A stretch of DNA of 64,000 bases, taken from assembly GCA_907165275.2 (NCBI GenBank), contig OU015666.1, forward strand, positions 2,510,001 through 2,574,000, given 5' to 3'. This DNA comes from Zygaena filipendulae. Its lineage: Eukaryota > Arthropoda > Insecta > Lepidoptera > Zygaenidae. Each line of letters opens with the position of its first letter. Position 1 is the stretch's first letter. The position numbers and the translations under genes were made by a program. Of the stretch, positions 25,364-64,000 are shown one piece after another. The notes under the pieces were generated by a model. It ran no database searches and had not been told where the DNA came from. It worked only from the letters and a program-made list of their open reading frames with translations.

Positions 25364-26721
25364 AAAATAAATTATTACTAATTACGGTCATTAGTTATCA
25401 TTAATAAATTACTAATCATTTAATACCTACCTAATAATAAATATAATTAACATTTCAGACTTACAACTTACAACTGCAGACTATTTAGCTATTCAGGGTG
25501 GTATGCGTCTGTTGGAAATCGGGGCTCGCTGACCTGTATTTTTATGACACTGGTCTACTTTTAAATGAGATGCAGATCACCACTAGGTTAGGTAAAGTTG
25601 TACTAACTGGGGCCTGGGACAGAAGAGAATATTATTATATTGTCATCCGACAGGAAAAGCACTTCCGTACTTCATAATTCGCAAAGAAGTTAAGGGATTA
25701 CTTCACCCTTTAATGGGATCGGTCTACTGCTGTCAGTCATGGTCAACTTCAGAGCAGGGTGTGGTGGCAGTCCAATGGGATCAAAAGATAATAATGTTTT
25801 CCTAAGTAAATTTTCATAACCATGGTGTCACGAGTGCATATTGCATAGTGATTAATCGTTAGCTTAACTTCGCTCAATACTTTCAAAAAAGTGCATTAAA
25901 ACAAATAAGAAGTCTGATGTTTATCTGTTAACGTTAGGTACTCGCATATCGAGACTGATTGAACTGCAAAGCTCAAATAAAATATTAGTAGGTACCATGA
26001 TATCGATAATCGGGGTAATAAAAAACAAGTGAAAAAAGATAACATGTTTTATTTAATTTATACATGATAATATGAAAGTTCAAATTTATTTACAATAATG
26101 TTAAGATACAAAATTTATCACCACTGAATAAACTACTAAACACGGTCTCAAAAACTTTTGAAAGCAGCTTGTCCATAAAATAAGGTGTAACTAAAACTTT
26201 GTTAAAGTTCGTAAGGTAATTATACGATGTAAAAATGAGAAGATGTTTGGATGGATGTGACTCAATCACACATAAACGGTTTAGCAAAATTGTGTTTTAG
26301 ATTAAACAGGCACACACACACACACACACACACAATACACATACTTTTTATCCCCTAAATCTTAAAAATATAGTAGCAAAACAATTATATCAAATACAAT
26401 AAAATCTGGACCCAATGAAATTATCTAAATTATACAAACTCAGTTTGAAATATCCACTTCGCGCATCTATAAAACAACATCATGTATATTATAATAATAT
26501 CATACATTAGCAATCTTACAGATACCCGCTGGATATTGGATGTGACGTGTTAATGTCGAACGCTTCGTCGATTACGGGGGGCATTCTTTGAAGCTCTTGA
26601 CGGTGATAATGTTTCAAGCTTAGAAGTTGATTGCGACCGATCCCTCCATTTTCACCTACTACCCACTGACCCTTGAACTTGCTGCACAAGTTTGAGCAGT
26701 GATTGGTAACGCAGATGAAAA
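25364..26721. repeat. Array unit 1: 3' flank of the long gene
   Basis: This block is repeated at about 33197-34563, 41438-42607, 54490-55847 and 62414-63771. It holds a TTAGCTATTCAGGGTGGTAT segment at ~25485, an 80-nt TTATCCCCTAAATC region, and a (CA)n tract at 26310-26335 whose length varies between units. The ORF at 26516-26758 overlapping the end of the long gene is discussed in the findings. No other gene is supported. Confidence 0.7.
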
Positions 26722-28592
26722 TTAAATTAACGGCATTGACGGTAACGTTTTTTGCCACGACACAGATGATAATGATAGCGAAGATAATTTTGACGTGGCT
26801 TGCGGGAGGATAGACGCGGACGATGGTGGCTTTGATAATGATGGCCTCGATGATGCTTGTGAGACAGGTTTGGATAATGGTGACTTCGATGATGATAATT
26901 TTGACTTTTCGTGTAAGGAAAGTGATTCGGAAGAAGATAACTTTGATGACCGTGATGATTTTGACGTATAAGTTCCTTTTGAAGGGAAGGATGTGGATGG
27001 TGGTGGCCTCGATGATACTGACTTTGACGCTGCATGTGCGTGGATAGATGTAGAAGACGATGGTCTTGCTGATAATGAAAATCTTGACGAAGACGTCGTT
27101 TGAGAGAAAGAAGTGGACGATGATGGTCTCGACAATGATGATTTTGATGTTTTGTGCCGACCACCGGAAGCGGAAGACGAAGATTTTGATGATGATGACG
27201 AACTTGACACTGATGATTTTGATTTTATGTACGAGGGTGCAGATGTAGAGGACGATGATTTTGACGATGATGAGGATCTTGCCGTAGACATGCCTTTTGA
27301 TGAGAAAGATGTGGATGAAGGCGGCCTCGATGATGATGTATTTGACTTTGGATACGGAGCGTCGGAAGTGAAAAATGATGACCTCGATGATGATGAAAAT
27401 CTTGTCGTGGATGTTGCTTGTGAAGGAAAAGATGTGGAAAATAACGGATTTAATGATAACTCTAACATTGGTTGGGAGACAGGTGTTGACGATGGTGGCA
27501 TTGATGATGATGACTTGGGATATTTCGCAATCACTCTAGCAGGAACTTGGTGTGAAGGACTAAATATCGACTGCCATTTTGATTTCGGTTCTTCATTCTC
27601 CAAAACCGTTGAAGATGATGTCAGTTCTGGTTTTTTTGAGGTAGATTGCGTCTGAGCCCATTTTCGTTTGCGAACCACAGGTAGCATTAAACTTGGTAAT
27701 GCTTGGGTTTGATCTCGCCGAATTTGTGCTGGAAGCGAAGTCGTTGATAGCGGCTCTGAAAATAATGCCTTCATAAATTTTGCTCGCCGGGGGTCGCGCG
27801 CGGATAACTGTAGCCATGACGATGGTGGCTTTGATGGCTCTGACGTAAACGCTATTGGGATAAGTCGATAAGGAATTGATGAGGATGATGCTAAACAAGA
27901 TTTCGATTTTTCTAGTGACTCGGTGTTTCGTTTCTGAAGGGAATATTTTTGCTCCGACGGTCTTAACGTCGCTTGCATATGAACTTCCCGAGTTTTTAGA
28001 GGGGCGACTAATTTTGATGTCGTTTGCAGAGGGTTCGATGTAGACGTTGATGGCCTTGACACTGCTGGCGGTAACACATGCGACGGGGCATTATCATACG
28101 TTTGTGGAGAAATAAATGTAGACGATAACGGCCCTGATGTTGATGCTGATGATGTAAAACCGCAATTTTGTAGTGCAACCGATGATCCTGCTGCTGATGA
28201 AGTCGCTGAAACTTCCGACACTGCTGACGAAAGCCCTGACACCTGTTCGCCATGCGCTTCTTCATATTCGCGCACCCTTTGCTTTATATGGAGAAACTTT
28301 TGGTGAACGTAATCAAACAAAGACCGCTGGCTCATTAGTTTATCGTCCGCTTATTGTGCTCGGTCTCGAGGTTGCTCATCAATTGAGATTCTGTGGACGG
28401 AGACGGAGCTCTTCTTAGCGATGACATGATCTGATTGTAGGTTCGCAAGCTTGCGTTTATTTCATTATAAAGACTCATGTAATACGGATGTTCTGAGTCG
28501 AGATCTGTTTTATATTGTTCGCACATTGTCGGGTTCATTATTGGACTATATAATTTTGTATAATCCTCGGCTCTGTTAATATTGCACTGCAT
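26722..28592 (-). pseudogene. Long ELL-family gene with 7-bp frameshift (unit 1)
   Basis: The ATG at 28590-28592 opens 85 codons covering most of the ELL domain. A 7-bp deletion at 28350/28351 (TATTATA, present in the other copies) then shifts the frame to a quick stop. The original frame resumes at an in-frame methionine (28333-28335, MSQRSLFDYVHQK) and is open for 537 codons to 26722. Two in-frame deletions relative to the other long copies are also present: 21 bp near 28011 and 63 bp near 27517. Codons 8 and 16 also differ (RAED, LYSP). The full protein cannot be made; a shortened product from the internal ATG, keeping half the domain plus the Ser-rich tail, is possible. The remaining coding frame is well preserved, so the lesion is recent. 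Confidence 0.85.
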
Positions 28593-28931
28593 ATTTTGAT
28601 GATGGTAGTCGTTTCAGTCAATATTAATATTACGATAAGAGTCTGCTTGCTGAAGCAAATATACTGAAGCTCAGTTTGCTTACACGCTCTTCGGATCAAA
28701 CTGATCACCACAGAATGTTGATCAAAGCGGTTTTGCGATCAAACAGTCACGTATGCCTTTAATTCGTTGTGTCCGCACACAGAATGGGTGGTTAGTCAAC
28801 ACAAACAACAACCGTCGGTGACGGATGCTGGTACCAATTTTATAAGATTGTCGTTTGTCGATCGTATAATTTTCACTTTTAATGGGTCACAGAGCTTAAA
28901 AATGCGTCGTTACATTCGAAAGTCAAAAGAG

Positions 28932-29070
28932 ACTGAAGACTATGGCGAAAATTGGGAAGTATTTATATTTGACCGCATGCCACCCAGGCAGGCGATGCAG
29001 GTAGGTACACAAAAAAATTGCAAGAGTGTAGACACAAAGGAACAATAGATTTCTTATCTATTTAGATAAG
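28932..29070 (-). promoter_or_regulatory. Promoter of the unit 1 long gene
   Basis: Inverted TCAGT initiator at 28932-28936, inverted TATAAATA at 28960-28967, and the 18-bp GATA palindrome CTTATCTATTTAGATAAG at 29053-29070. Predicted 5' leader of about 340 nt with no recognised splice sites. Confidence 0.65.
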
Positions 29071-30858: not shown

Positions 30859-32409
30859 ATGCAGTGCAATATTAACAGAGACGAGGATTATACAAAATTA
30901 TATGGTCCAATAATGAACCCGACAATGTGCGAACAATATAAAACAGATATCGACTCAGAACATCCGTATTACATGAGTCTTTATAATGAAATTAACGCAA
31001 GATTGCGAACCTACAATCAGATCATGTCATCGCTAAGAAGAGCTCCGTCTCCGTCCACAGAATCTCAATTGATGAGCAACCTCGAGACCGAGCACAATAA
31101 TATAATAGCGGACGATAAACTAATGAGCCAGCGGTCTTTGTTTGATTACGTTCACCAAAAGTTTCTCCATATAAAGCAAAGGGTGCGCGAATATGAAGAA
31201 GCGCATGGCGAACAGGTGTCAGGGCTTTCGTCAGCAGCGTCGGGAGTTTCAGCGACTTCATCAGCAGCAGGATCATCGGTTGCACTACAAAATTGCGGTT
31301 TTACATCGTCAGCATCAACATCAGGGCCGTTATCGTCTACATTTATTTCTCTACAAACTTATAATGCCCCGTCAACGTCTACATCGATCCCTCTACAAAC
31401 GAAATCAAAATTAGGGCCATTACCGTCGCGCACAGTTGTCCCTCTTAAAACTCAGGGAGTTCATACGCTGGCGACGTCAAGACCGTCAGAGCAAAAATAT
31501 TTCCTTCAGGGACGGAACACCGAGTCGCAAGTGAAATCGAAATCTTGTTTAGCGTCATCTTCATCAATTCCTTATCGGCTTATTCCAATAACGTTCACGT
31601 CAGAGCCATCAAAGGCACCATCGTCATGGCTACAGTTATCCGCGCGTGACCCCCGGCGGGCAAAATTTACAAAGGCATTATCTTCAGAGCCGCTATCATG
31701 TACTTCGTTTCCAACACAAATTCGGCGAGGTCGACCCCAAGCACAACCAAGTTTAGTGATACCTGTGGTTCGCAAACGAAAATGGGCACAGATGCAGTCC
31801 ACATCAAAAGTACCAGAAACGACATCATCTTCAACGATTTTGGAGAATGCCGAACCGAAACCAAAACGGCAATTTGCACCGCAAAACAGTAAAAGCTCCT
31901 TGACGCAACCAACAAAACTGTCGTCGGCGACATCTGTCCTCCGCACAACTTTGGACGTTGCGCTACCCGAACCAAAAAAATCGGCATTGGTATCTAGAAA
32001 AGAATATCATTATGAGGAACTCAATAAGCCGTCTGAACCGGAGGACTTTGGAGCCATTTATAGATATATTTCTAACGATAAGACCAAAAAAATGTTCAAA
32101 AAAGCGTTCAGCATCGTATATAACGAAAACTATTTGCCGTTGCGCCAAAAGTTAGAACATACCCTAAAAGAGTACCACAGCGCTGATGAAAAGTATCGCG
32201 TTCAGAAATCTACCCAACCTCGCGATGCCATTCAATTGGAAAGAGCGAGGGCGTATCGGAAGATTATTTCGCATCGTTTGCTCAATGATAAATTTTATAA
32301 GGACGATCGCGCTCGGTACAATTACTACTATCGAAAGCTCATGTTCATAAAAGATCGGTTGAATGAGTATGCGACATTGAAAACGCGCAACCATTTGGGT
32401 ATAAAGTGA
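30859..32409 (+). CDS. Double ELL-domain protein, short class (516 aa, unit 1)
   Basis: Intact. The first occludin/ELL-like domain spans residues ~10-114 (CEQYKTD, HPYYMSLYNEIN, FDYVHQKFLHIKQRVREYE). A Ser/Thr/Pro-rich linker of ~270 residues includes a conserved block IPYRLIPITFTSEPSKAPSS (238-257), then WLQLSARDPRRAKF, and basic patches (IRRGR near 288, VRKRKW at 304-309, PKPKR at 333-337) suited to nuclear import. The second ELL-like domain is at ~395-505 (EDFGAIYRYI ... YYYRKLMFIKDRLNEY). No ELL elongation domain, signal peptide or membrane segment is present. AATAAA lies at 32544, 135 nt past the stop. It is divergent with the long gene at 26722-28592 and convergent with the one at 34564. 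By analogy with ELL it may bind elongation-complex scaffolds; that is inference. Confidence 0.88.
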   Translation: MQCNINRDEDYTKLYGPIMNPTMCEQYKTDIDSEHPYYMSLYNEINARLRTYNQIMSSLRRAPSPSTESQLMSNLETEHNNIIADDKLMSQRSLFDYVHQKFLHIKQRVREYEEAHGEQVSGLSSAASGVSATSSAAGSSVALQNCGFTSSASTSGPLSSTFISLQTYNAPSTSTSIPLQTKSKLGPLPSRTVVPLKTQGVHTLATSRPSEQKYFLQGRNTESQVKSKSCLASSSSIPYRLIPITFTSEPSKAPSSWLQLSARDPRRAKFTKALSSEPLSCTSFPTQIRRGRPQAQPSLVIPVVRKRKWAQMQSTSKVPETTSSSTILENAEPKPKRQFAPQNSKSSLTQPTKLSSATSVLRTTLDVALPEPKKSALVSRKEYHYEELNKPSEPEDFGAIYRYISNDKTKKMFKKAFSIVYNENYLPLRQKLEHTLKEYHSADEKYRVQKSTQPRDAIQLERARAYRKIISHRLLNDKFYKDDRARYNYYYRKLMFIKDRLNEYATLKTRNHLGIK

Positions 32410-34563: not shown

Positions 34564-36519
34564 TTAAATTAACGGCATTGACGGTAACGTTTTTTGCCAC
34601 GACACAGATGATAATGATAGCGAAGATAATTTTGACGTGGCTTGCGGGAGGATAAACGCGGACGATGGTGGCTTTGATAATGATGGCCTCGATGATGCTT
34701 GTGAGACAGGTTTGGATAATGGTGACTTCGATGATGATAATTTTGACTTTTCGTGTAAGGATTCGGAAGAAGATAACTTTGATGACCGTGATGATTTTGA
34801 CGTATAAGTTCCTTTTGAAGGGAAGGATGTGGATGGTGGTGGCCTCGATGATACTGACTTTGACGCTGCATGTGAGTGGATAGATGTAGAAGACGATGGT
34901 CTTGCTGATAATGAAAATCTTGACGAAGACGTCGTTTGAGAGAAAGAAGTGGACGATGATGGTCTCGACAATGATGATTTTGATGTTTTGTGCCGACCAC
35001 CGGAAGCGGAAGACGAAGATTTTGATGATGATGACGAACTTGACACTGATGATTTTGATTTTATGTGCGAGGGTGCAGATGTAGAGGACGAGGATTTTGA
35101 CGATGATGAGGATCTTGCCGTAGACATGCCTTTTGATGAGAAAGATGTGGATGAGGGTGGCCTCGATGATGATGTATTTGACTTTGGATATGGAGCGTCG
35201 GAAGTGAAAAATGATGACCTTGATGATGATGAAAATCTTGTCGTGGATGTTGCTTGTGAAGGAAAAGATGTGGAAAATAACGGATTTAATGATAACTCTA
35301 ACATTGGTTGGGAGACAGGTGTTGACGATGGTGGCATTGATGATGATGACTTGAATGATGCCTCATGCAAGGGAACAGATGTAATTATATTCTTATCAGA
35401 TGTTACAACTAGATTGGGATATTTCGCAATCACTCTAGCAGGAACTTGGTGTGAAGGACTAAATATCGACTGCCATTTTGATTTCGGTTCGTCATTCTCC
35501 AAAACCGTTGAAGATGATGTCGGTTCTGGTTTTTTTGAGGTAGATTGCGTCTGAGCCCATTTTCGTTTGCGAACCACAGGTAGCATTAAACTTGGTAGTG
35601 CTTGGGTTTGATCTCGCCGAATTTGTGCTGGAAGCGAAGTCGTTGATAGCGGCTCTGAAAATAATGCCTTCATAAATTTCGCTCGCCGGGGGTCGCGCGC
35701 GGATAACTGTAGCCATGACGATGGTGGCTTTGATGGCTCTGACGTAAACGTTATTGGGATAAGTCGATAAGGAATTGATGAGGATGACGCTAAACAGGAT
35801 TTCGATTTTTCTAGTGACTCGGTGTTTCGATTCTGAAGGGAATATTTTTGCTCTGACGGTCTTAACGTCGCTTGCATATGAACTTCCCGAGTTTTTAGAG
35901 GGGCGACTATGCGTGACGGTGATGGCCCTAATTTTGATGTCGTTTGCAGAGGGTTCGATGTAGACGTTGATGGCCTTGACTCTGCTGGCGGCAACACATG
36001 CGACGGGGCATTATGATACGTTTGTGGAGAAATAAATGTAGACGATAACGGCCCTGATGTTGAAGCTGACGATGTAAAACCGCAATTTTGTAGTGCAACC
36101 GATGATCCTGCTGCTGATGAATTCGCTGAAACTTCCGACGCTGCTGACGAAAGCCCTGACACCTGTTCGCCATGCGCTTCTTCATATTCGCGCACCCTTT
36201 GCTTTATATGGAGAAACTTTTGGTGAACGTAATCAAACAAAGACCGCTGGCTCATTAGTTTATCGTCCGCTATTATATTATTGTGCTCGGTCTCGAGGTT
36301 GCTCATCAATTGAGATTCTGTGGACGGAGACGGAGCTCTTCTTAGCGATGACATGATCTGATTGTAGGTTCGCAAGCTTCCGTTTATTTCATTATAAAGA
36401 CTCATGTAATACGGATGTTCTGAGTCGAGATCTGTTTTATATTGTTCGCACATTGTCGGGTTCATTATTGGACCATATAATTTTGTATAATCCTCGTCTC
36501 TGTTGATATTGCACTGCAT
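34564..36519 (-). CDS. ELL-domain protein with Ser-rich tail, long class (651 aa, unit 2)
   Basis: Intact, start ATG 36517-36519. Residues ~10-114 form the ELL-like domain, nearly identical to the short genes. The linker matches the short class through VVRKRKWAQ (~315-323) and ENDEPKSK (~341-348). After that the two classes diverge: this one continues SIFSPSHQVPARVIAKYP, then a low-complexity tail (~390-645) built from SSS, RPSSSTSF, SSKSS and similar words. There is no second ELL domain. The tail is TCN-rich, so the opposite strand reads as a long Asp-rich ORF, which is only a shadow. Ser-rich tails of this kind are likely disordered and phosphorylated (inference). The last 37 nt overlap an 80-codon ORF in another frame (34355-34600). 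Confidence 0.85.
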   Translation of the reverse strand: MQCNINRDEDYTKLYGPIMNPTMCEQYKTDLDSEHPYYMSLYNEINGSLRTYNQIMSSLRRAPSPSTESQLMSNLETEHNNIIADDKLMSQRSLFDYVHQKFLHIKQRVREYEEAHGEQVSGLSSAASEVSANSSAAGSSVALQNCGFTSSASTSGPLSSTFISPQTYHNAPSHVLPPAESRPSTSTSNPLQTTSKLGPSPSRIVAPLKTREVHMQATLRPSEQKYSLQNRNTESLEKSKSCLASSSSIPYRLIPITFTSEPSKPPSSWLQLSARDPRRAKFMKALFSEPLSTTSLPAQIRRDQTQALPSLMLPVVRKRKWAQTQSTSKKPEPTSSSTVLENDEPKSKWQSIFSPSHQVPARVIAKYPNLVVTSDKNIITSVPLHEASFKSSSSMPPSSTPVSQPMLELSLNPLFSTSFPSQATSTTRFSSSSRSSFFTSDAPYPKSNTSSSRPPSSTSFSSKGMSTARSSSSSKSSSSTSAPSHIKSKSSVSSSSSSSKSSSSASGGRHKTSKSSLSRPSSSTSFSQTTSSSRFSLSARPSSSTSIHSHAASKSVSSRPPPSTSFPSKGTYTSKSSRSSKLSSSESLHEKSKLSSSKSPLSKPVSQASSRPSLSKPPSSAFILPQATSKLSSLSLSSVSWQKTLPSMPLI

Positions 36520-36857
36520 ATTTTGATGATGCTAGTCGTTTCAGTCAATATTAATATTACGATAAGAGTCTGCCTGCTGAAGCAAATATACTGAAGCTCA
36601 GTTTGCTTACACGCTCTTCGGATCAAACTGATCACCACAGAATGTTGATCAAAGCGGTTTTGCGGTCAAACAGTCACGTATGCCTTTAATTCGTTGTGTC
36701 CGCACACAGAATGGGTGGTTAGTCAACACAAACAACAAACGTCGGTGACGGATGCCTGTACCAATTTTATAAGATTGTCGTTTGTCGATCGTATAATTTT
36801 CACTTAATGTGTCACTGAGCTTAAAAATGCGTCGTTACATTCGAAAGTCAAAAGTGA

Positions 36858-36996
36858 ACTGAAGACTATGGCGAAAATTGGGAAGTATTTATATTTGACC
36901 GCATGCCACCCAGGCAGGCGAGGCAGGTAGGTACACAAAAAAATTGTACGAGTGTAGACACAAAAGAACAATAGATTTCTTATCTATTTAGATAAG
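36858..36996 (-). promoter_or_regulatory. Promoter of the unit 2 long gene
   Basis: Inverted TCAGT at 36858-36862, inverted TATAAATA at 36886-36893 and GATA palindrome at 36979-36996. Confidence 0.65.
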
Positions 36997-38602
36997 GATA
37001 TTCTCCAATACTTCTAGTATATTGATATTTCTCTCAGTTCGATATATTTGTTATCTCTAACACTTACTGTACATTTGAATACTATAGAACAGCCAGAATG
37101 TTAATTTTTTTTTATGTGTTCGATATGTCCAAATAAGGACAAAAATAATATAAAATTACTCGGCGTGAGGACCGACGCTGATGATATGAACGGGATTAAT
37201 GGGAGAACTTTGAAATAGATTTAAATTGAAATTTATATAAAATGCGAAGCAACTTTTTACTCAAACAATAAACTGTCATTGCAAGGATTGAACATACACC
37301 ATTAAAGTCTAAACTCAAAAAGTACAAGACCGATTTAAAAAAAAAAATCATCATTAGAATGCTACATTATCCCTTAGTGACGTAGGGTATGAACTCCAAA
37401 ATTACCGCGGGGAACAGCTAGTCTTTTTGTCAAGCAGTGCAGCCAGCTCACCGTTTATTAATGAATATAAATTGTCTATAAATGAAATGAAACTTATTTC
37501 AAATTAATGTGTACGACTGTACGACTATAATACCTATGTACGTATATAATACATATAAACTATACTTGAATATTTAAATATAAGTATATTAGTAGATAGT
37601 AGTAGAATAAGTTGTTTTCCGTTGATGTGACAAAAATGCTGTAAAATAAAAATCTCGAACTGAATTTTTACTTTTATACGTGCATACATACGTATAAATG
37701 CCAATGCAGGTTTGTTTGTTTCTTTATGACGATATCACGCTTTAACGGCTCAAACGATCATCATCATTTCGGACACACGTTGTCAGGAAATAGGGTACTT
37801 TTTATCTCGGAATTTTCGTTTGAACTCAGTAATTAAACCCCAGGTTACAACTAGCCACGTAGGTAGATATACCTAATTATATTTATCAGTATTGCGAAAT
37901 AATACTAAGCCAATTTTGGTGATGCTGAATGCAAAAAGGTTTCCTTGGAATATTTTATTGTAACTCGTATGTTAAACCTACACACATTCACGGTCTTAGA
38001 CGCATACGTAGTATAGCATAGGTATATACACGTGAGGCATAATGTGTTCTTGACTTTCTTCTTATCTTGTTTAGACTATGTATGATACTTTACACCCTTG
38101 AAACATCGGTTGAAACATGGATCGATTACTTTTGATTAATTTTACTGTTCACGGATTTTTCTAAACCACACAATAGTTTCTTGCCAGGTTGGTATTTATT
38201 AATCCAATGGTGTAGAGTAAATTTAAAATTGCGTACTTACCATTTTGCGTACTGGTAATATATATCTATTTATTTTGATTTAAAAACTGATAATTCAAAA
38301 ATTATTAAATTAAGGTATTGAGTATAGAAGAAAAAATAACGCAAAATTATCTACCAAGTGTTATTTCAATTTAAATCTATTTCAAAAGTTATCCCATTAA
38401 TCCCATTCATATCATTAGCGTCGGTCATCACGCCGAGTAATTTTATATTATTTTTGTCCTTATTTGGACATATCGAACACATAAACAAAAAGAAATCACA
38501 TTCTGGCTGTCCAATAGTATTCAAATGTACAGGAAGTGTTAGAGATAAGAAATATATCGAACCGAGAGAAATATCAATATTCTAGAAGTACTGGAGAATA
38601 TC

Positions 38603-38741
38603 CTTATCTAAATAGATAAGAAATCTATCGTTCTTTTGTGTCTACACTCGTTCAATTTTTTTGTGTACCTACCTGCCACGCCTGCCTGGGTGGCATGCGG
38701 TCAAATATAAATACTTCCCAATTTTCGCCATAGTCTTCAGT
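38603..38741 (+). promoter_or_regulatory. Promoter of the unit 2 short pseudogene
   Basis: GATA palindrome at 38603-38620, TATAAATA at 38706-38713 and TCAGT at 38737-38741, all intact although the gene is broken. Confidence 0.62.
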
Positions 38742-39079
38742 TCACTTTTGACTTTCGAATGTAACGACGCATTTTTAAGCTCAGTGACACATTAAGTGAA
38801 AATTATACGATCGACAAACGACAATCTTATAAAATTGGTACCAGCATCCGTCACCGACGTTTGTTGTTTGTGTTGACTAACCACCCATTCTGTGTACGGA
38901 CACAACGAATTAAAGGCATACGTGACTGTTTGATCGCAAAACCGCTTTGATCAACATTCTGTGGTGATCAGTTTGATCCGAAGAGCGTGTAAGCAAACTG
39001 AGCTTCAGTATATTTGCTTCAGCAGGCACACTCTTATCGTAATATTAATATAGACTGAAAGAACTAGCATCATCAAAAT

Positions 39080-40630
39080 ATGCAGTGCAATATTAACAGA
39101 GACGAGGATTATACAAAATTATATGGTCCAATAATGAACCCAACAATGTGCGAACAATATAAAACAGATCTCGACTCAGAACATCCGTATTACATGAGTC
39201 TTTATAATGAAATAAACGCAAGCTTGCGAACCTACAATCAGATCATGTCATCGCTAAGAAGAGCTCCGTCTCCGTCCACAGAATCTCAATTGATGAGCAA
39301 CCTCGAGACCGAGCACAATAATATAATAGCGGACGATAAACTAATGAGCCAGCGGTCTTTGTTTGATTACGTTCACCAAAAGTTTCTCCATATAAAGCAA
39401 AGGGTGCGCGAATATGAAGAAGCGCATGGCGAACAGGTGTCAGGGCTTTCGTCAGCAGCGTCGGGAATTTCAGCGACTTCATCAGCAGCAGGATCATCGG
39501 TTGCACTACAAAAATGCGGTTTTCCATCGTCAGCATCATCATCAGGGCCGTTATCGTCTACATTTATTTCTCTACAAACTTATAATGCCCCGTCAACGTC
39601 TACATCGATCCCTCTACAAACGAAATCAAAATTAGGGCCATTACCGTCGCGCACAGTTGTCCCTCTTAAAACTCAGGGAGTTCATACGCTGGCGACGTCA
39701 AGACCGTCAGAGCAAAAATATTTCCTTCAGGGACGGAACACCGAGTCGCAAGTGAAATCGAAATCTTGTTTAGCGTCATCCTCATCAATTCCTTATCGGC
39801 TATTTCCAATAACGTTCACGTCAGAGCCATCAAAGGCACCATCGTCATAGCTACAGTTATCCGCGCGTGACCCCCGGCGGGCAAAATTTACAAAGGCATT
39901 ATCTTCAGAGCCGCTATCATGTACTTCGTTTCCAACACAAATTCGGTGAGGTCGACCCCAAGCACAACCAAGTTTAGTGATACCTGTGGTTCGCAAACGA
40001 AAATGGGCACAGATGCAGTCCACATCAAAAGTACCAGAAACGACATCATCTTCAACGATTTTGGAAAATGCCGAACCGAAACCAAAACGGCAATTTGCAC
40101 CGCAAAACAGTAAGAGCTCCTTGACGCAATCAACAAAACTGTCGTCGGCGACATCTGTCCTCCGCACAACTTTGGACGTTGCGCTACCCGAACCAAAAAA
40201 ATCGGCATTGGTATCTAGAAAAGAATATCATTATGAGGAACTCAATAAGCCGTCTGAACCGGAGGACTTTGAAGCCATTTATAGATATATTTCTAACGAT
40301 AAGACCGAAAAAATGTTCAAAAAAGCGTTCAGCATCGTATATAACGAAAACTATTTGCCGTTGCGCCAAAAGTTAGAAAATGCCCTAAAAGAGTACCACA
40401 GCGCTGATGAAAAGTATCGCGTTCAGAAATCTACCCAACCTCGCGATGCCATTCAATTGGAAAGAGCGAGGGCGTATCGGAAGATTATTTCGCATCGTTT
40501 GCTCAATGATAAATTTTATAAGGACGATCGCGCTCGGTACAGTTACTACTATCGAAAGCTCATGTTCATAAAAGATCGGTTGAATGAGTATGCGACATTG
40601 AAAACGCGCAACCATTTGGGTATAAAGTGA
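39080..40630 (+). pseudogene. Short ELL-family gene with two stop codons (unit 2)
   Basis: Full length (same 1551 bp as the intact short genes) and colinear, but codon 257 is TAG (39848-39850, tryptophan TGG elsewhere) and codon 290 is TGA (39947-39949, arginine CGA elsewhere). Both are single transitions. Upstream of the first stop, 256 codons encode the first ELL domain and half the linker. Downstream of the second, an open frame with an ATG at 39977 covers the basic patches and the whole second ELL domain (217 codons). The absence of frameshifts and the near identity to intact copies point to recent inactivation. AATAAA is at 40765. Confidence 0.9.
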
Positions 40631-42607: not shown

Positions 42608-42649
42608 TTTATTTATTTATTTATTTATTTATTCAAAAAGTTTACCAAC

Positions 42650-43449
42650 AATTGTTACAATACATCAATAAAGAAAACAAGATTATTAGTATTGAGCTCA
42701 TTGCACATTGTTTCTCAACATCCTCCGGCCCCTGGCTGCGTGTGCGCAGCAGCCAACTCCTCGGTGCGCAGCTCCAGGGCGTACAGCCGCTGTATGGGCC
42801 GCACCGTCTCACTGCCGCTGGCTAATCGTATCCGGGCGGCCCGGCTGTGTCCGTCCACTCCTGGGAACACCTCCATTACTCGACCGAGTGGCCAGTGGAC
42901 TCACTTTACATTTTGGATCTCAACCAGAACAATATCTCCCGGTCGGACTATCCAATCATTCCTCTTCTGTTGTTTCTGTATAAGCAGTGACAGGTATTCA
43001 TTTCTAAATCTTGACTTAAATTCTTCTCTCAACTTTACAATTCGAGTAGCTTGAGCATTTAGTCCTATCTCGTCTAAGTCACTCGTATCACGGCGTTTGT
43101 TGGAAACGATGAAATCGTTGGGCGTCAGAGGGACTAGGTTCTCTGTATCAGTATTAGCCGTCAATGGCCGATTGTTCATTACGCCTTCAATTTCACATAG
43201 CATTGTGTACAGCGCTACTCGGTCCAAAGATGCTTTTCCTAGCATTCTGCGCATCATATCCTTGACTAATTTTATCAAGCGCTCCCAAAACCCTCCCCAC
43301 CACGGGGCTTGAGGCGGAATGAAATGCCATTTGATCTTGTCGCCTGACGTTTCCCGCAAAAGATTAGCTGCCCTGATGAAGTTGGAGCCGTTGTCTGTGT
43401 AAACTACGTTGGGCCTGCCTCTCCTGGCTATAAAGCGGCGTAATGCCAT
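42650..43449 (-). pseudogene. BEL/Pao integrase core, C-terminal part, frameshifted
   Basis: A second frame, offset by one base from the preceding one, begins MALRRFIARRGRPNVVYTDN at 43449 and carries the rest of the integrase core (YTDNGSNF, then PPQAPWWGGFWERLIK with the catalytic glutamate) and the C-terminal domain start (RPGDIVLVE). A stop occurs at 42901. Beyond it another frame keeps the C-terminal words (PLGRVMEVFPGVDG ... RPIQRLYALE) to about 42715. The frameshift at 43449 and the later break make the integrase inactive. Confidence 0.8.
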
Positions 43450-45353
43450 TAGAAAATTAGAAATGCGTCAGTGGAAAGTGAATTCACCAGCTCTAGGTGA
43501 ACGGCTCTGTAGGTTGCGCATGTAAATAAAACAATCCATACCTTTTCTCTTGATCGTAGAATTAGTGGGCCAGCTAAATCAATGCCGGTTACATCAAATG
43601 CGTGACCACATCTTACTCGATCGGCAGGTAGTGGTGCTGTAGGTGCCGAACACATCTTTGCGCTGAGCCTCTTGCACGGAATGCACTCTCTCACTATTTT
43701 CTTGGATAATCGTCTGATTCCCAAAATCCAATATTCTTCACGAATATTGTTTATCAACATTTGTACGCCAGCATGACAGCTTTTTATATGACAATGTCTT
43801 ACTAACTTCATAACTGTCACGTTAGTACCAGGTAGCAATATAGGTGAGATAAAATTGTCTTTGTCTTGAGATAGAGTCAAACGAGTTTTTACTCTCAGAA
43901 TTTTATCTTTGTCTTCACTTATCTCCATATTCAGAAATTTCTTTGTGGATTCTATGTCTGAGAATTCTTCCGACTGAATCAATCTGAATAATTTCTTCTC
44001 TGACTCTTCGTATTCTTCGCCTGTTATTTCTCCTCTTTTTAGAGCTTCTTTCTTAGACTTTCGTTGGCAATTCTTGCTAAATCTCAGACACCAGGCTAAC
44101 ATTCTTACCGTCTTGGTATATTTTGAGAAGTAGTTCAGTTGATCGGAGAATTTATTATTTATCTGTACATTCAGACAACTTTTCTTCATTTCTCTCATAA
44201 CTTCATTGTGTGTCTTACTTTGAGCTTTAGCATCGTCATCTATACTAAGGGTTTCTAACTTCCACATGTCTTCTACGTCAAATCCAACAAAGTTGAGATT
44301 TATAGTGTTGACTGAATATACATTGTATGCAGGTCCTTGTATGGCCCAGCCAAATTTCGTTTCAATAGCTACAAGACTGTCTTTCAGAGTAATCATACTA
44401 CCAGTCATAATAGAACCCAAATATTCTGCTCCAATCAAAATATCAATATCTTCATTTGGCGAGTCTTTGATAGTTATACCTTTCTCTTTCAGGATATTCA
44501 GAATGTTAGCATCAGCTTTTGGTAGCGCTTGGCAAATAATAGGCGGCTCCAAGGCTTCCATTTCAATCATAAACTTATCGTCGCAGCTCATCAGTGTTAA
44601 TTTATAGGACTTGCGATTTTCCTTTCTGGTTACTACTCCACCGAATAGGTTATGCGATACTAAAGCTTCGCCACTGGGTACGAGTTTCAGTTTGTCTGCA
44701 ATACCTTTCTTTACGAATGATCTTTGTACCCCTGTATCAAGGAGGGCTCTTACCGCGATTTTCTTGCCTTTATGCGCTACGTTCAGACTCAACGTTGGTA
44801 GGATCACTGTAGCGTTGGAAACATTGCAAAGATTAGTCTTCGGCTTTTCATCTTCGTTTTCATTTTTCTTTTCTGGTGGATGCATTAATGCATAATGACG
44901 TTTACCACAATAGGTACATGTTACATGCTTCCTGCAATATTTATGCCAATGTCCTATAACTAGGCAAATTCTGCATGCTTTCTTTATCTTCACAGCTTTA
45001 TGACGATCATCGAGACTCATTTTCTTAGCATCTTCACAGTCTGCTGATGAATGTAGTTGACTGTCACAAAAGATGCATTTTCTAACCTTCTGTGCACCAG
45101 GATTGACGTTTTCTGTTGCTGCAGTGAAACACGAAGTCGAGGGTTCATTAGGGACAATATTTTTACGTGAAATCTTAATTCTCTCCTCGCTTTCAGCTTC
45201 CCTTTTCAGAAATGTAAGCAGATCGTTCAAGGTGCTTGATTGGTCAGTATGAGTTGATCGGCTATCTTGGCGTTCCCATACCTTTAGCAGTTCAATTGGT
45301 AGCGCTGACTCGACGAGTGGACGGAGCATAGCAGCATACTTGTCGCTGGTCAC
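43449..45353 (-). pseudogene. BEL/Pao gag-protease-integrase remnant
   Basis: One 634-codon frame. It has a gag C-terminal region (DKYAAMLRPLVESALP near the start), two CCHC-like zinc knuckles at residues ~90-160 (CIFCDSQLHSSADC; CTYCGKRHYALMH), and a retroviral-type aspartic protease with the ALLDTG motif at ~204-210. It then passes, with no RT or RNase H, to the linker after RNase H (FSKYTKTVRMLAWCLRF), the H2C2 zinc-binding domain of integrase (HCHIKSCHAG ... CIPCKR) and the start of the integrase core (FDVTGIDLAGPL). The frame ends at a stop at 43449-43451. The loss of RT and RNase H leaves the frame intact. Confidence 0.85.
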
Positions 45354-48696: not shown

Positions 48697-50606
48697 CACA
48701 CATCAAAAGTATCTAGGGATCAAGTACATTTTAGAGAATTGCCGCAAATCGGGATTATAAGGATCCAGAAAAGAAACAATACTTTTCTGGATCCTTATTG
48801 AAACTTTTTATTGAATTTCACCATTTGAATAAAGAATTTTATTTTAATTTTGTGTAAACTTTTAAAAATAACTGCCATTAAAAATCCCTATAAAAGCGTG
48901 CGATGGCATTTTTACAAAAACATTACAATTTCTGCATCGTAACTGAAAAAAATTTCATCGGTATGGAGCGACAACATTATTTGGCTCGAGAAGAGATGCT
49001 GAGATCCGTTGGAATATTGGAAGCTCGCACCAGGCAAATCACTGTGGCTGCTGCTGTTGGGACAAAGCAGAGCGTCATGAGCCGCCTATGGACACGCTAT
49101 CGCATCACGGGTAGTGTGGCGGAGCAACATGGAGGGCAAACTCGCATCACCACTCGAAGACAGGACCGCTATATCCAGAATACAGCGCTAAGAAATCGTA
49201 CTATGACCGCCATGATGATATCTACGAGGCTCCACAGCGCTTCAGGCTTACTCGATCAAACTATACGTAATCGTTTACGAGAAGTGGGTCTGTGATCCCG
49301 AAGGCCTCTGAGAGTTCCACCAATAGCGCCCCGCAAGCGTAGAGCCCAGAACACAGTAATTAGGAGGAAGAATACTGGTGTGGTGTTTGCTTTTCCGATG
49401 AATCTCGTTTCGGTATGAGGCCGGATACAAGACGTACATTAGTTTGGAGAAGCCCTGGACATCAAGAACGATTGAAATTCTGTTAGTTAGTTCATCCGTA
49501 TGGAGGGGGAACAATTATGGTTTGGGCCAGTATTTGGATCGGTGGAAGAATCAATCTCATTTGGATCAGGGGCAATCTTAATGCTTAGATTTATGTAACA
49601 AGGATTGTTTCAGACGTAATCATCCCTTAGCGAAGCCAGTTGGGTGATTCGCTTCAACTTATGCACGACAATGCACGTCCATACACTGCTGGAGTCGTAA
49701 CACGCACTCTTGCCAATGCTGATATCAACGTCCTGCCGTGGCCTGTTCAATCACCTGACCTAAATCCTATTGAGCACGCATGGGATATACTCCAAAGAAG
49801 AGCTCTGCCGGGGATGGATGCTGTAAATACCCCACAACAACTTTTTGACTTGTTACAAAGAACGTGGGTGGCCATTTCTCAAAGTGATTTTGATTAACTG
49901 ATTTTAAGCATACTAAATCACTGCGGATGTGTGATTCGTGTCAATGGAAGGAACACAGAATGTTAATTTGTTTATTCATTACAATATAATTTTCAAAAAC
50001 CCCCCCTGTCTTTGCCTTTTTTTGCCATTTTATTGTCGACTTAGAATTGGTTCAATTGGGTCCTTGCATGAAATTTATTATAAGAAATTGTGTCAATATT
50101 TCAAAAATAGAGCCTTAGAAAAGCGGTATCGTGAAAGACTTACTAAAAAAATTTCAATAGTTTCCAAAATATTCAACTTTTAATATTGTGAAACACATGA
50201 CCCTGTCAAAACGACAGTGACATTTCTATCGCAGATTAATAAGGGTGAAATTTTGAACTAGTGACGTCATTCCGCGTTTTGGCGGTAAAGTCTAAAGTAT
50301 GAACTTAGAAACGCTCTATTTAAATAATTTATGAATATATTTTATTTTTCTTTTTCTTGCTTTGTTTAAATAGACCATATATCTTTAAAAGAGACTGAAA
50401 AAAAAAATTATGCGAGTACCCTATTTCTCAAATTTTACAAAAAATAAAATTTTTCCTAATTTATTCAAAATATGGGGATGAATTGTTAATTAAGATATGG
50501 GAAATAAAGCAGGCAGCCAGTCCAGAAGATTATATTAGATTTAAATTGATTGAGTTTCTTTTTATAGCAAAAAATGTACTTGATCCCTAGACACTTTTGA
50601 TGTGTG
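48697..50606 (+). mobile_element. Tc1-like element with both ends (1.91 kb)
   Basis: Terminal inverted repeats of 36 bp begin CACACATCAAAAGT at 48697 and end ACTTTTGATGTGTG at 50606, with one mismatch between the ends. TA dinucleotides flank both sides (48695-48696, 50607-50608). A subterminal 19-bp hairpin (AAGGATCCAGAAAAG ... CTTTTCTGGATCCTT) lies at about 48758-48798. The region after the transposase (49900-50570) is non-coding. The internal point 50506 is also the left border of a large tandem duplication. Confidence 0.92.
48903..49897 (+). pseudogene. Tc1-like transposase, broken (unit 3)
   Basis: 130 open codons (48903-49295) encode the DNA-binding region (VGTKQSVMSRLWTRYR). A TGA follows, then frameshifts, deletions (for example about 18 bp near 49348 compared with the copy at 3025) and stops. 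A second open stretch (49640-49897) holds MHDNARP with the second catalytic aspartate and SPDLNPIEHAWD with the third acidic residue. The first catalytic aspartate (FSDESRF) lies in the broken middle. Inactive. Confidence 0.9.
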
Positions 50607-52134: not shown

Positions 52135-53685
52135 ATGCAGTGCAATATTAACAGAGACGAGGATTATACAAAATTATATGGTCCAATAATGAACCCGACA
52201 ATGTGCGAACAATATAAAACAGATCTCGACTCAGAACATCCGTATTACATGAGTCTTTATAATGAAATAAACGGAAGCTTGCGAACCTACAATCAGATCA
52301 TGTCATCGCTAAGAAGAGCTCCGTCTCCGTCCACAGAATCTCAATTGATGAGCAACCTCGAGACCGAGCACAATAATATAATAGCGGACGAAGAACTAAT
52401 GAGCCAGCGGTCTTTGTTTGATTACGTTCACCAAAAGTTTCTCCATATAAAGCAAAGGGTGCGCGAATATGAAGAAGCGCATGGCGAACAGGTGTCAGGG
52501 CTTTCGTCAGCAGCGTCGGGAATTTCAGCGACTTCATCAGCAGCAGGATCATCGGTTGCACTACAAAAATGCGGTTTTCCATCGTCAGCATCAACATCAG
52601 GGCCATTATCGTCTACATTTATTTCTCTACAAACTTATAATGCCCCGTCAACGTCTACATCGATCCCTCTACAAACGAAATCAAAATTAGGGCCATTACC
52701 GTCGCGCACAGTTGTCCCTCTTAAAACTCAGGGAGTTCATACGCTGGCGACGACAAGACCGTCAGAGCAAAAATATTTCCTTCAGGGACGGAACACCGAG
52801 TCGCAAGTGAAATCGAAATCTTGTTTAGCGTCATCTTCATCAATTCCTTATCGGCTTATTCCAATAACGTTCTCGTCAGAGCCATCAAAGGCACCATCGT
52901 CATGGCTACAGTTATCCGCGCGTGACCCCCGGCGGGCAAAATTTACAAAGGCATTATCTTCAGAGCCGCTATCATATACTTCGTTTCCAACACAAATTCG
53001 GCGAGGTCGACCCCAAGCACAACCAAGTTTAGTGATACCTGTGGTTCGCAAACGAAAATGGGCACAGATGCAGTCCACATCAAAAGTACCAGAAACGACA
53101 TCATCTTCAACGATTTTGGAGAATGCCGAACCGAAACCAAAACGGCAATTTGCACCGCAAAACAGTAAAAGCTCCTTGACGCAACCAACAAAACTGTCGT
53201 CGGCGACATCTGTCCTCCACACAACTTTGGACGTTGCGCTACCCGAACCAAAAAAATCGGCATTGGTATCTAGAAAAGAATATCATTATGAGGAACTCAA
53301 TAAGCCGTCTGAACCGGAGGACTTTGAAGCCATTTATAGATATATTTCTAACGATAAGACCGAAAAAATGTTCAAAAAAGCATTCAGCATCGTATATAAT
53401 GAAAACTATTTGCCGTTGCGCCAAAAGTTAGAAAATGCCCTAAAAGAGTACCACAGCGCTGATGAAAAGTATCGCGTTCAGAAATCTACCCAACCTCGCG
53501 ATGCCATTCAATTGGAAAGAGCGAGGGCGTATCGGAAGATTATTTCGCATCGTTTGCTCAATGATAAATTTTATAAGGACGATCGCGCTCGGTACAGTTA
53601 CTACTATCGAAAGCTCATGTTCATAAAAGATCGGTTGAATGAGTATGCGACATTGAAAACGTGCAACCATTTGGGTATAAAGTGA
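52135..53685 (+). CDS. Double ELL-domain protein, short class (516 aa, unit 3)
   Basis: Intact and colinear with the unit 1 short gene. ELL-like domains lie at ~10-114 and ~395-505, with linker basic patches at ~288 and ~304. Notable differences from unit 1 are ADEELMS for ADDKLMS at the end of domain 1, LQKCGFP for LQNCGFT, SYTSFP for SCTSFP, and DFEAIY for DFGAIY in domain 2. AATAAA lies at 53820. The whole gene lies inside the 7,924-bp duplicated block; its sister at 60059 encodes the same protein, with a single synonymous change noticed (53064 versus 60988). Confidence 0.88.
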   Translation: MQCNINRDEDYTKLYGPIMNPTMCEQYKTDLDSEHPYYMSLYNEINGSLRTYNQIMSSLRRAPSPSTESQLMSNLETEHNNIIADEELMSQRSLFDYVHQKFLHIKQRVREYEEAHGEQVSGLSSAASGISATSSAAGSSVALQKCGFPSSASTSGPLSSTFISLQTYNAPSTSTSIPLQTKSKLGPLPSRTVVPLKTQGVHTLATTRPSEQKYFLQGRNTESQVKSKSCLASSSSIPYRLIPITFSSEPSKAPSSWLQLSARDPRRAKFTKALSSEPLSYTSFPTQIRRGRPQAQPSLVIPVVRKRKWAQMQSTSKVPETTSSSTILENAEPKPKRQFAPQNSKSSLTQPTKLSSATSVLHTTLDVALPEPKKSALVSRKEYHYEELNKPSEPEDFEAIYRYISNDKTEKMFKKAFSIVYNENYLPLRQKLENALKEYHSADEKYRVQKSTQPRDAIQLERARAYRKIISHRLLNDKFYKDDRARYSYYYRKLMFIKDRLNEYATLKTCNHLGIK

Positions 53686-59581: not shown

Positions 59582-59720
59582 CTTATCTAAATAGATAAGA
59601 AATCTATCGTTCTTTTGTGTCTACACTCGTTCAATTTTTTTGTGTACCTACCTGCCACGCCTGCCTGGGTGGCATGCGGTCAAATATAAATACTTCCCAA
59701 TTTTCGCCATAGTCTTCAGT
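59582..59720 (+). promoter_or_regulatory. Promoter of the unit 4 short gene
   Basis: GATA palindrome at 59582-59599, TATAAATA at 59685-59692 and TCAGT at 59716-59720. Confidence 0.66.
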
Positions 59721-60058
59721 TCACTTTTGACTTTCGAATGTAACGACGCATTTTTAAGCTCAGTGACACATTAAGTGAAAATTATACGATCGACAAACGA
59801 CAATCTTATAAAATTGGTACCAGCATCCGTCACCGACGTTTGTTGTTTGTGTTGACTAACCACCCATTCTGTGTGCGGACACAACGAATTAAAGGCATAC
59901 GTGACTGTTTGACCGCAAAACCGCTTTGATCAACATTCTGTGGTGATCAGTTTGATCCGAAGAGCGTGTAAGCAAACTGAGCTTCAGTATATTTGCTTCA
60001 GCAAGCAGACTCTTATCGTAATATTAATATTGATTGAAACGACTAGCATCATCAAAAT

Positions 60059-61609
60059 ATGCAGTGCAATATTAACAGAGACGAGGATTATACAAAATTA
60101 TATGGTCCAATAATGAACCCGACAATGTGCGAACAATATAAAACAGATCTCGACTCAGAACATCCGTATTACATGAGTCTTTATAATGAAATAAACGGAA
60201 GCTTGCGAACCTACAATCAGATCATGTCATCGCTAAGAAGAGCTCCGTCTCCGTCCACAGAATCTCAATTGATGAGCAACCTCGAGACCGAGCACAATAA
60301 TATAATAGCGGACGAAGAACTAATGAGCCAGCGGTCTTTGTTTGATTACGTTCACCAAAAGTTTCTCCATATAAAGCAAAGGGTGCGCGAATATGAAGAA
60401 GCGCATGGCGAACAGGTGTCAGGGCTTTCGTCAGCAGCGTCGGGAATTTCAGCGACTTCATCAGCAGCAGGATCATCGGTTGCACTACAAAAATGCGGTT
60501 TTCCATCGTCAGCATCAACATCAGGGCCATTATCGTCTACATTTATTTCTCTACAAACTTATAATGCCCCGTCAACGTCTACATCGATCCCTCTACAAAC
60601 GAAATCAAAATTAGGGCCATTACCGTCGCGCACAGTTGTCCCTCTTAAAACTCAGGGAGTTCATACGCTGGCGACGACAAGACCGTCAGAGCAAAAATAT
60701 TTCCTTCAGGGACGGAACACCGAGTCGCAAGTGAAATCGAAATCTTGTTTAGCGTCATCTTCATCAATTCCTTATCGGCTTATTCCAATAACGTTCTCGT
60801 CAGAGCCATCAAAGGCACCATCGTCATGGCTACAGTTATCCGCGCGTGACCCCCGGCGGGCAAAATTTACAAAGGCATTATCTTCAGAGCCGCTATCATA
60901 TACTTCGTTTCCAACACAAATTCGGCGAGGTCGACCCCAAGCACAACCAAGTTTAGTGATACCTGTGGTTCGCAAACGAAAATGGGCTCAGATGCAGTCC
61001 ACATCAAAAGTACCAGAAACGACATCATCTTCAACGATTTTGGAGAATGCCGAACCGAAACCAAAACGGCAATTTGCACCGCAAAACAGTAAAAGCTCCT
61101 TGACGCAACCAACAAAACTGTCGTCGGCGACATCTGTCCTCCACACAACTTTGGACGTTGCGCTACCCGAACCAAAAAAATCGGCATTGGTATCTAGAAA
61201 AGAATATCATTATGAGGAACTCAATAAGCCGTCTGAACCGGAGGACTTTGAAGCCATTTATAGATATATTTCTAACGATAAGACCGAAAAAATGTTCAAA
61301 AAAGCATTCAGCATCGTATATAATGAAAACTATTTGCCGTTGCGCCAAAAGTTAGAAAATGCCCTAAAAGAGTACCACAGCGCTGATGAAAAGTATCGCG
61401 TTCAGAAATCTACCCAACCTCGCGATGCCATTCAATTGGAAAGAGCGAGGGCGTATCGGAAGATTATTTCGCATCGTTTGCTCAATGATAAATTTTATAA
61501 GGACGATCGCGCTCGGTACAGTTACTACTATCGAAAGCTCATGTTCATAAAAGATCGGTTGAATGAGTATGCGACATTGAAAACGTGCAACCATTTGGGT
61601 ATAAAGTGA
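60059..61609 (+). CDS. Double ELL-domain protein, short class (516 aa, unit 4)
   Basis: Intact; the same protein as the unit 3 short gene, being the duplicated copy. ELL-like domains lie at ~10-114 and ~395-505, with the Ser/Pro linker and basic patches. AATAAA is expected at 61744. It forms a divergent pair with the long gene at 55848 and is convergent with the partial long gene at the right edge. Two near-identical short genes 7.9 kb apart give either increased dosage or an assembly duplicate. Confidence 0.87.
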   Translation: MQCNINRDEDYTKLYGPIMNPTMCEQYKTDLDSEHPYYMSLYNEINGSLRTYNQIMSSLRRAPSPSTESQLMSNLETEHNNIIADEELMSQRSLFDYVHQKFLHIKQRVREYEEAHGEQVSGLSSAASGISATSSAAGSSVALQKCGFPSSASTSGPLSSTFISLQTYNAPSTSTSIPLQTKSKLGPLPSRTVVPLKTQGVHTLATTRPSEQKYFLQGRNTESQVKSKSCLASSSSIPYRLIPITFSSEPSKAPSSWLQLSARDPRRAKFTKALSSEPLSYTSFPTQIRRGRPQAQPSLVIPVVRKRKWAQMQSTSKVPETTSSSTILENAEPKPKRQFAPQNSKSSLTQPTKLSSATSVLHTTLDVALPEPKKSALVSRKEYHYEELNKPSEPEDFEAIYRYISNDKTEKMFKKAFSIVYNENYLPLRQKLENALKEYHSADEKYRVQKSTQPRDAIQLERARAYRKIISHRLLNDKFYKDDRARYSYYYRKLMFIKDRLNEYATLKTCNHLGIK

Positions 61610-63771
61610 GAGTACGTGAAAATAAAGGCTTCAGTAGCCCTTAGAAAGGTAGTAAAGTACATGTCATTGAAATTGTCGGTCTGTCGCTATTCCGAATATT
61701 TAAGTACTGCAAGATACAAATGGGATAGAGATTAGGTATATCCAATAAATAAATAACATTTAAAACCTTTACATAATTTTCATTTTTCCCCATAGTATCT
61801 ATTAATGTGAATAAATTACACTGATTATTTTTTGTTTATAATAAATGTGAAATGAAACTTATTATCAAATTAATGTATTCCCTGAACGACTATAATATGT
61901 ATATAAATAATACTTGAATATTATTAGTAGATTCTAAGATTATAATATAAGTTGTTATCCGTTGATGTGACAAAAAATGCTGTACCTAAAATAAAAGTTA
62001 TGTGTAAAATTATACCAAATAAATGATGATTATAATTATGATTGTTTTTTTTTTCGTCTTTCCAAGAATGTAAACTTAAGTCTACGGTAGTTTCTTGATC
62101 AATCAAAAAAATATGAAAAATTAAAGTAAAAACTCAAACTTAAACTTAAACTCAATCACGCAGAAACGGTTGAACGGATTTAGATGAAATTTGGCATGCA
62201 TTTAGCCTTTGACATGGTAAAGAACATAGGCTACCTTTTATCTAAGAATTCCCGTGGGATCTCCGAAATTAACACGGGTGAAATAGAATTAATTATTGCA
62301 CACTACACGTTGTTAGAGGTACAGAAAAGGACATAGGGTACTTTTATCTTGGAATTCCCGCGGGATCTCAGACATTAACGTGGGTGAAACCACGGGGCAC
62401 AGTAGCTAGTTAAGAATAAATTATTACTAATTACGGTCATTAGTAATCATTAATAAATTACTAATCATTTAATACCTACCTAATAATAAATATAATTAAC
62501 ATTTCAGACTTACAACTTACAACAGACTATTTAGCTATTCAGGGTGGTATGCGTCTGTTGGAAATCGGGGCTCGCTGACCTGTATTTTTATGACACTGGT
62601 CTACTTTTAAATGAGATGCGGATCACCACTAGGTTAGGTTAAGTTGTACTAACTGGGGCCTGGGACAGAAGAGAATATTATTATATTGTCATCCGACAGG
62701 AAAAGCACTTCCGTACTTCATAATTCGCAAAGAAGTTAAGGGATTACTTCACCCTTTAATGGGATCGGTCTACTGCTGTCAGTCATGGTCAACTTCAGAG
62801 CAGGGTGTGGTGGCAGTCCAATGGGATCAAAAGATAATAATGTTTTCCTAAGTAAATTTTCATAACTATGGTGTCACGAGTGCATATTGCATAGTGATTA
62901 ATCGTTAGCTTAACTTCGCTCAATACTTTCAAAAAAGTGCATTAAAACAAATAAGAAGTCTAATGTTTATCTGTTAACGTTAGGTACTCGCATATCGAGA
63001 CTGATTGAACTGCAGAGCTCAAATAAAATATTAGTAGGTACCATGTAATCGATAATCGGGGTAATAAAAAACAAGTGAAAAAAGATAACATGTTTTATTT
63101 AATTTATACGTCATGAAAATATGAAAGTTCAAATTTATTTACAATAATGTTAAGATACAAAATTTATCACCACTGAATAAACTACTAAACACGGTCTCAA
63201 AAACTTTTGAAAGCAGCTTGTCCATAAAATAAGGTGTAACTAAAACTTTGTAAAAGTTTGTAAGGTAATAATTATACGATGTAAAAAATGAGTAGATGTT
63301 TGGATGGTTGTGACTCAATCACACATAAACGGTTTAGCAAAATTTTGTTTTAGATTAAACAGGCACACACACACACACACACAATACACATACTTTTTAT
63401 CCCCTAAATCTTAAAAATGTAGTAGCAAAACAATTATACCAAATACAATAAAATCTGGATCTCAACGAAATTGTCTAAATTATACAAACTCAGTTTGAAA
63501 TATCCACTTCGCGCATCTATAAAACAGCATCATGTATATTACAATAATATCATACATTAGCAATCTTACAGATACTCGCTGGATATTGGATGTGACGTGT
63601 TAATGTCGAACGCTTCGTCGATTACGGGGGGCATTCTTTGAAGCTCTTGACGGTGATAATGTTTCAAGCTTAGAAGTTGATTGCGACCGATCCCTCCATT
63701 TTCACTTACTACCCACTGACCCTTGAACTTGCTGCACAAGTTTGAGCAGCGATTGGTAACGCCGATGAAAA
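61610..63771. repeat. Convergent intergenic region, units 4/5
   Basis: Duplicate of 53686-55847, including the Helitron-like tails and a (CA)n tract (63364-63382). No gene supported. Confidence 0.7.
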
Positions 63772-64000
63772 TTAAATTAACGGCATTGACGGTAACGTTT
63801 TTTTCCACGACACAGATGATAATGATAGCGAAGATAATTTTGACGTTGCTTGCGGGAGGATAGACGCGGACGATGGTGGCTTTGATAATGATGGCCTCGA
63901 TGATGCTTGTGAGACAGGTATGGATAATGGTGACTTCGATGATGATAATTTTGACTTTGCGTGTAAGGAAAGTGATTCGGAAGAAGATAACTTTGATGAC
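63772..64000 (-). CDS. Long-class ELL-family gene, 3' end only (unit 5)
   Basis: The last ~76 codons of a long gene, in the duplicated copy of 55848-56076. It encodes the end of the Ser-rich tail and the LPSMPLI terminus before the stop at 63772-63774. The 5' part, including the ELL domain, lies beyond the window. No lesion is seen in the visible part. Confidence 0.8.
   Translation of the reverse strand, partial: SSKLSSSESLSLHAKSKLSSSKSPLSIPVSQASSRPSLSKPPSSASILPQATSKLSSLSLSSVSWKKTLPSMPLI

Follow-up and report, generated by a model that had tools for sequence, protein, structure and literature searches.

Multicopy cluster of occludin/ELL homology domain genes with palindromic gene pairs on a probably autosomal contig of the moth Zygaena filipendulae

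The window analysed here, i.e. the whole stretch of 64,000 nucleotides at positions 2,510,001 to 2,574,000 of contig OU015666.1 of Zygaena filipendulae (C17:2510001-2574000), carries part of a cluster of genes whose proteins contain the occludin/ELL homology domain (OHD, Pfam PF07303). As stated in the original prediction, it holds four head-to-head pairs, each made of a long-type gene (L) on the minus strand and a short-type gene (S) on the plus strand, with start codons at 28592-/30859+, 36519-/39080+, 47635-/52135+ and 57791-/60059+. Six of these eight genes are intact, namely L4 (34564..36519; 651 amino acids), L5 (45674..47635; 653 amino acids), L6 (55848..57791; 647 amino acids), S3 (30859..32409), S5 (52135..53685) and S6 (60059..61609), the last three coding for 516 amino acids each. 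The two others are broken: L3 (26722..28592) has a frame break near 28350, with an open reading frame (ORF) still present at 26722-28335, and S4 (39080..40630) has in-frame stops, with ORFs at 39080-39850 and 40013-40630. The proposed doubling of the domain holds for the short genes, which have two ELL domains, but not for the long genes, which, like L4, have a single one and a serine-rich tail. As for the spacing, the announced period of about 8 kb describes only the first L-to-L step (7,927 bp), the following ones being 11,116 and 10,156 bp.

The family was placed at 25364..64000 but also occupies other parts of the window, as well as both flanks. On the minus strand, positions 1..437 correspond to L2, a broken long-type copy with a stop at codon 26 and its 3' part left of the window; 8072..9406 to A2, an older two-domain gene (444 amino acids; PF07303 E 1.1e-22, two stretches); 23858..24928 to B2, an older one-domain gene (356 amino acids; PF07303 E 3.4e-14) ending with SIFSPSH; and 63772..64000 to the 3' end of L7, the next long-type gene (647 amino acids), which runs out of the window on its right side.

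The genome (365,880,709 bases in 56 contigs, 366 Mb) was scanned for further copies. The PF07303 profile matched at least 42 places (50 candidates scored), of which 40 lie on C17 and the other two, on C18, are exons of the moth's own intron-containing Ell (exon 2 vs. ELL2, E 9.3e-7). The S6 protein matched at least 45 places (83 of 97 candidates scored), all of them in the 2.4809-2.6671 Mb interval of C17. Among the matches listed in these two genome-wide searches, no PF07303 match other than Ell was found outside the cluster. The cluster itself spans 187 kb and counts 39 loci with an N-terminal domain, some of them broken (200 kb fetched, without N): one A', three A, three B, eleven L, nine S and twelve C, L3 being counted once although listed in two rows. 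Two domains are present in A and S and one in A', B and L, while C consists of 12 tandem short genes. Nine L(-)/S(+) pairs are found, and only L2 and L9 are L copies without an S partner. The order A - B - L/S occurs three times, which suggests block duplication.

The array had been described as many-copy and intronless, and uninterrupted frames are indeed found in 21 of the 27 non-C loci (A' 1/1, A 3/3, B 2/3, L 8/11 and S 7/9), the remaining six being broken or short: the third B copy is visible as fragments only, L2, L3, S4 and S7 are broken, and L11 is short. The C copies have 311 codons (292 in C7) and, because of stops, end before the L type. They lie at C17:2631743-2666991 with a repeat unit of 3,119-3,120 bp, and, from C2 to C12, each copy is separated from the next by 0-9 alignment columns per 3.1 kb, vs. 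126 between C1 and C2; judged by these differences, the expansion of the C copies is very recent. Nucleotide identity among copies of one type ranges from 0.977 to 1.000 (98.3-99.3% for the three A copies), a few L copies and a few S copies being identical or nearly so.

The identity of the domain, which had been read from the sequence, is supported by profile, structure and model. All four family proteins scanned reach 47.4-81.1 bits with PF07303 (gathering cut-off 31.2 bits), with E 4.1e-16 for S6 (two stretches) and 3.6e-12 for L4 (one stretch). Tricellulin is the best sequence match among PDB entries, and the structures of ELL2 and occludin were also matched. In the model of S6, the only protein whose fold was predicted (alignment of six sequences), helices are at residues 21-61, 68-84 and 86-120 and at 407-448, 454-476 and 478-512, with block pLDDT values of 55-85 for residues 11-120 and 54-88 for residues 401-510. 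Its ten best Foldseek matches are all OHDs (E 1.0e-3 to 5.3e-2), and the OHD of the family is thus predicted to form a three-helix arch. In the same four proteins, Pfam searches up to E 1 gave PF07303 only, with neither a MARVEL match nor ELL_N, the N-terminal elongation domain of ELL. Rfam gave no match at the gathering threshold.

The inverted repetition of coding starts and upstream DNA within each pair was also observed. The ungapped inverted arms of the four window pairs measure 582, 1,100, 793 and 1,095 nt with 97-98% identity, the arms of L4/S4 being located at 36013..37112 (minus) and 38487..39586 (plus; 97% complementary); such identities exclude chance. Over seven pairs of the cluster, L vs. 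S identity is 97-99% from -400 to +400 around the ATG, then falls outward to 92-93% at -600 to -400 and 84-95% at +400 to +1000, beyond which similarity is gone; the upstream noncoding sequence has 92-98% identity as far as -600. Start codons are 2,260-2,268 bp apart in six of the nine pairs and 2,561, 2,716 and 4,500 bp apart in the others, the 4,500-bp spacing carrying a Tc1-like insertion.

Concerning the history of these arms, dS between L and S is 0-0.044 over codons 0-140 and 0.15-0.26 over codons 140-343 (four comparisons, two of them true pairs). Since L and S are alike in the promoter and the first 140 codons and unlike at codons 140-343, their 5' halves would have been homogenised before the pair multiplied. 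The same order of events, i.e. ancestral homogenisation and later amplification, is suggested by the within-pair identity (0.9662, n = 9), equal to that between pairs (0.9663, n = 72), and by the S/L branch, which is short in the 5' kilobase (0.0033; 0.0017 in the promoter and 0.0050 in the first 420 bp) vs. 0.124 in the linker. In trees of L and S copies only, the S/L split is not rejected (p-AU 0.19-0.53 for three 5' stretches). A 354-bp tree with outgroups, which omits L2, L3, B3 and eight of the 12 C copies, mixes S and L copies, and a separation of the one- and two-domain classes is rejected there (p-AU 2.8e-42), mostly because of the L-S homogenisation. As a whole, homogenisation in an ancestral pair followed by amplification is likely. 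Continuing gene conversion inside the palindromes was also considered and dropped, as within-pair identity is no higher than between-pair identity. Only two of ten upstream comparisons (A'-B and L-C) exceeded all 300 shuffles; L and C clearly have a common core promoter, but one promoter common to all subtypes is not shown.

Selection was estimated with the Nei-Gojobori method. Between subtypes, dN/dS of the N-terminal domain is 0.14-0.27 in the 14 comparisons besides S6-L4 (dS 0.65-1.98, several near saturation). The remainder of the protein, which aligns poorly, gives 0.44-0.80 in 12 comparisons, three more of the 15 being saturated. For the C-terminal domain dS is saturated, and within subtypes, where changes are few, dN/dS takes values between 0 and 1.35 and is little informative. 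The four coding indels seen among the intact copies of L, S, A and B all keep the reading frame, their lengths being multiples of three. These values indicate that the N-terminal OHD is under purifying selection, with loose linkers. Tandem amplification of a locus in decay, whether neutral or driven by mutation, would agree with the six broken or short non-C loci, the stops that shorten the C copies, the transposable element (TE) insertions in the spacers and the within-type ratios reaching 1.35; it is nevertheless unlikely, given the low ratios of the N-terminal domain, the in-frame indels and the 21 intact frames.

B, L, S and C, but not A, have RKRK-type basic clusters around codon 303-319, so that a nuclear signal is predicted for most subtypes. 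The SIFSPSH motif, a possible short linear motif, is restricted to the one-domain subtypes A', B and L and is present neither in the two-domain subtypes nor in the C frames. An interference with ELL-containing elongation complexes had been suggested, in which free OHDs would act as super elongation complex decoys, filling the ELL site on AFF/Lilli (or on EAF) and tuning elongation by RNA polymerase II. Both the basic clusters and the fact that Ell is, among the matches listed, the sole other OHD gene would suit such decoys. According to PMC5290273, AFF4 is bound by the OHD of ELL2 in a groove, for which the residues are given. The 31 groove positions derived from them are approximate, because some of the residues mismatch the sequence letters: Phe547 of the paper is residue 548 in the numbering used here, and at four positions (Tyr596, Ile599, Gln619 and Leu628) the residue differs from the one named. 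At these positions, eight domains of the family share 5-8 of 31 residues with human ELL2, vs. 16 for the moth's own Ell and 17 for tricellulin. When compared with own Ell, the family is more often identical in the groove (8-12 of 31) than elsewhere (10-17 of 72-73), but tricellulin, a junction protein, has a similar excess (12 of 31 vs. 23 of 69), which is therefore no sign of AFF binding. Because the AFF4 groove is poorly kept, interference with ELL complexes is not favoured: AFF4-type contact appears unsupported for the OHDs of the family, and decoys are an improbable explanation.

We therefore prefer, with moderate confidence, to view these loci as one gene family, whose proteins, with one or two OHDs and serine-rich, predicted-disordered stretches, would be nuclear adaptors binding a partner through the OHD; beyond the domain, each step of this model is inferred. 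The family may descend from an intronless OHD source, for which a retrocopy of Ell would be the simplest candidate, as the matches listed for the genome include no further OHD gene besides Ell. One-domain and two-domain genes would have come into the head-to-head arrangement, their promoters and N-terminal domains would then have been homogenised across the inverted arms, and the pair would next have multiplied in blocks (A - B - L/S pairs), with a separate expansion of the shortened C type. A common promoter would provide a coordinate, dosage-scaled output of one-site (L, B, C) and two-site (S, A) binders of the same partner, the former possibly capping partners and the latter bridging them. 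The partner is predicted to be other than AFF/Lilli bound in the human ELL2-AFF4 mode.

A sex-chromosome amplicon, as initially envisaged, is not what the genomic setting suggests, the cluster being most likely autosomal: C17 (11,795,000 bp) is, by its size, likely chromosome 17. In the published Z. filipendulae assembly, chromosome 17 (11.8 Mb) is an autosome, chromosome 18 measures 11.37 Mb and the Z 14.6 Mb (PMC11422757). Tpi is located on C54 (14,596,444 bp), taken as the Z, and the Ell-bearing C18 measures 11,371,952 bp. Among the matches listed, neither PF07303 nor S6 matched C54. A germline-conflict ampliconic family, engaged in drive or competing in dosage with a sex chromosome, would be consistent with the recent high-identity amplification, especially that of C2-C12, with the palindromic pairs and with the fast linkers; we give it little credence, however, considering the likely autosomal position and the absence, among the matches listed for C54 and the rest of the genome, of sex-linked partner copies. 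Compared with sex-chromosome palindromic families, the cluster is alike in its recent amplification and in its inverted arms, where the 5' halves are nearly identical, but differs by its location, its small arms (0.6-1.1 kb) and a within-pair identity that does not exceed that between pairs. Finally, although miscounting is conceivable for the near-identical C repeats and for the few L or S copies that are identical, an assembly artefact is very improbable, and the array likely not a collapsed one, since the 200 kb contain no N, many copies are distinguishable by sequence, in-frame indels and insertions, and the assembly is HiFi-based at 58-fold (PMC11422757).

Among known systems, the family shares with PF07303 proteins a sequence above the cut-off, the predicted three-helix arch and the matched structures, but its OHD is N-terminal, single or doubled, associated with serine-rich linkers and encoded in a multicopy cluster. 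In elongation factors and junction proteins, the OHD normally occurs once, at the C-terminus. ELL, ELL2 and ELL3 have the OHD in common with the family, which differs from them by the lack of a detected ELL_N, the poorly kept AFF4 groove and an OHD without intron; as for occludin and tricellulin tails, the OHD fold is the same, but the family has no MARVEL domain found and carries basic clusters in most subtypes. Mouse Ell3 is termed testis-specific in PMC3386972. A search of a protein database with full-length S6, in which serine-rich words may have crowded the candidates, scored 7,985 of them and gave no homologue at E 0.001; none was found among 29 candidates in a second search of the database, nor in viral contigs. 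Gloverin, taken as a marker of moths, gave no match in a search that had no positive control. As the protein collection seems poor in animal genomes, a restriction to this moth is not shown. No multicopy OHD gene cluster is described in the titles and abstracts searched, and a term search of PMC11837612 and PMC11675541 gave no mention of occludin.

More tentatively than for the adaptor reading, it is possible that the moth lineage has made the OHD a stand-alone block, in a self-contained system with one- and two-site binders, promoter-sharing palindromic pairs and autosomal dosage amplification. By way of a partner other than AFF4, such a system would, perhaps in germline cells, rewire a nuclear complex. 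With a domain that has been multiplied and doubled, and that selection maintains alongside drifting linkers, the cluster is a natural series in which to ask what a lone OHD can bind. It is also a likely autosomal example of paired inverted genes with homogenised 5' halves and still distinct 3' halves.

Other features of the region include remnants of TEs. Between the second and third pairs, a retrotransposon fragment (42901..45329, minus), presumably Pao/BEL-like, has an integrase zinc-binding match above the Pfam cut-off and aspartic protease and integrase core matches below it. The Tc1-like transposase fragment of the L5/S5 spacer (48903..49295, plus; below the Pfam cut-off) is nearly identical to a fragment at 3025-3417, the two adjoining L5 and L2, respectively, and it is possible that the 3025-3417 region arose by block duplication of the other and lost its S gene. 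Tc1-like and reverse-transcriptase-like fragments, judged by eye, also lie past the right end of the cluster (piece L028:5474-6512, 7458-9801). Antisense Asp/Glu-rich ORFs of 142-164 codons are found opposite the serine-rich parts (35063-35554, 46179-46670, 56353-56844, 27227-27655 and 8559-9053) and are most likely mirrors of serine codons rather than genes. Lastly, a tandem repeat is present between A2 and B2 (13325-13985), with 4.9 copies of a 136 bp unit and 96% matches.

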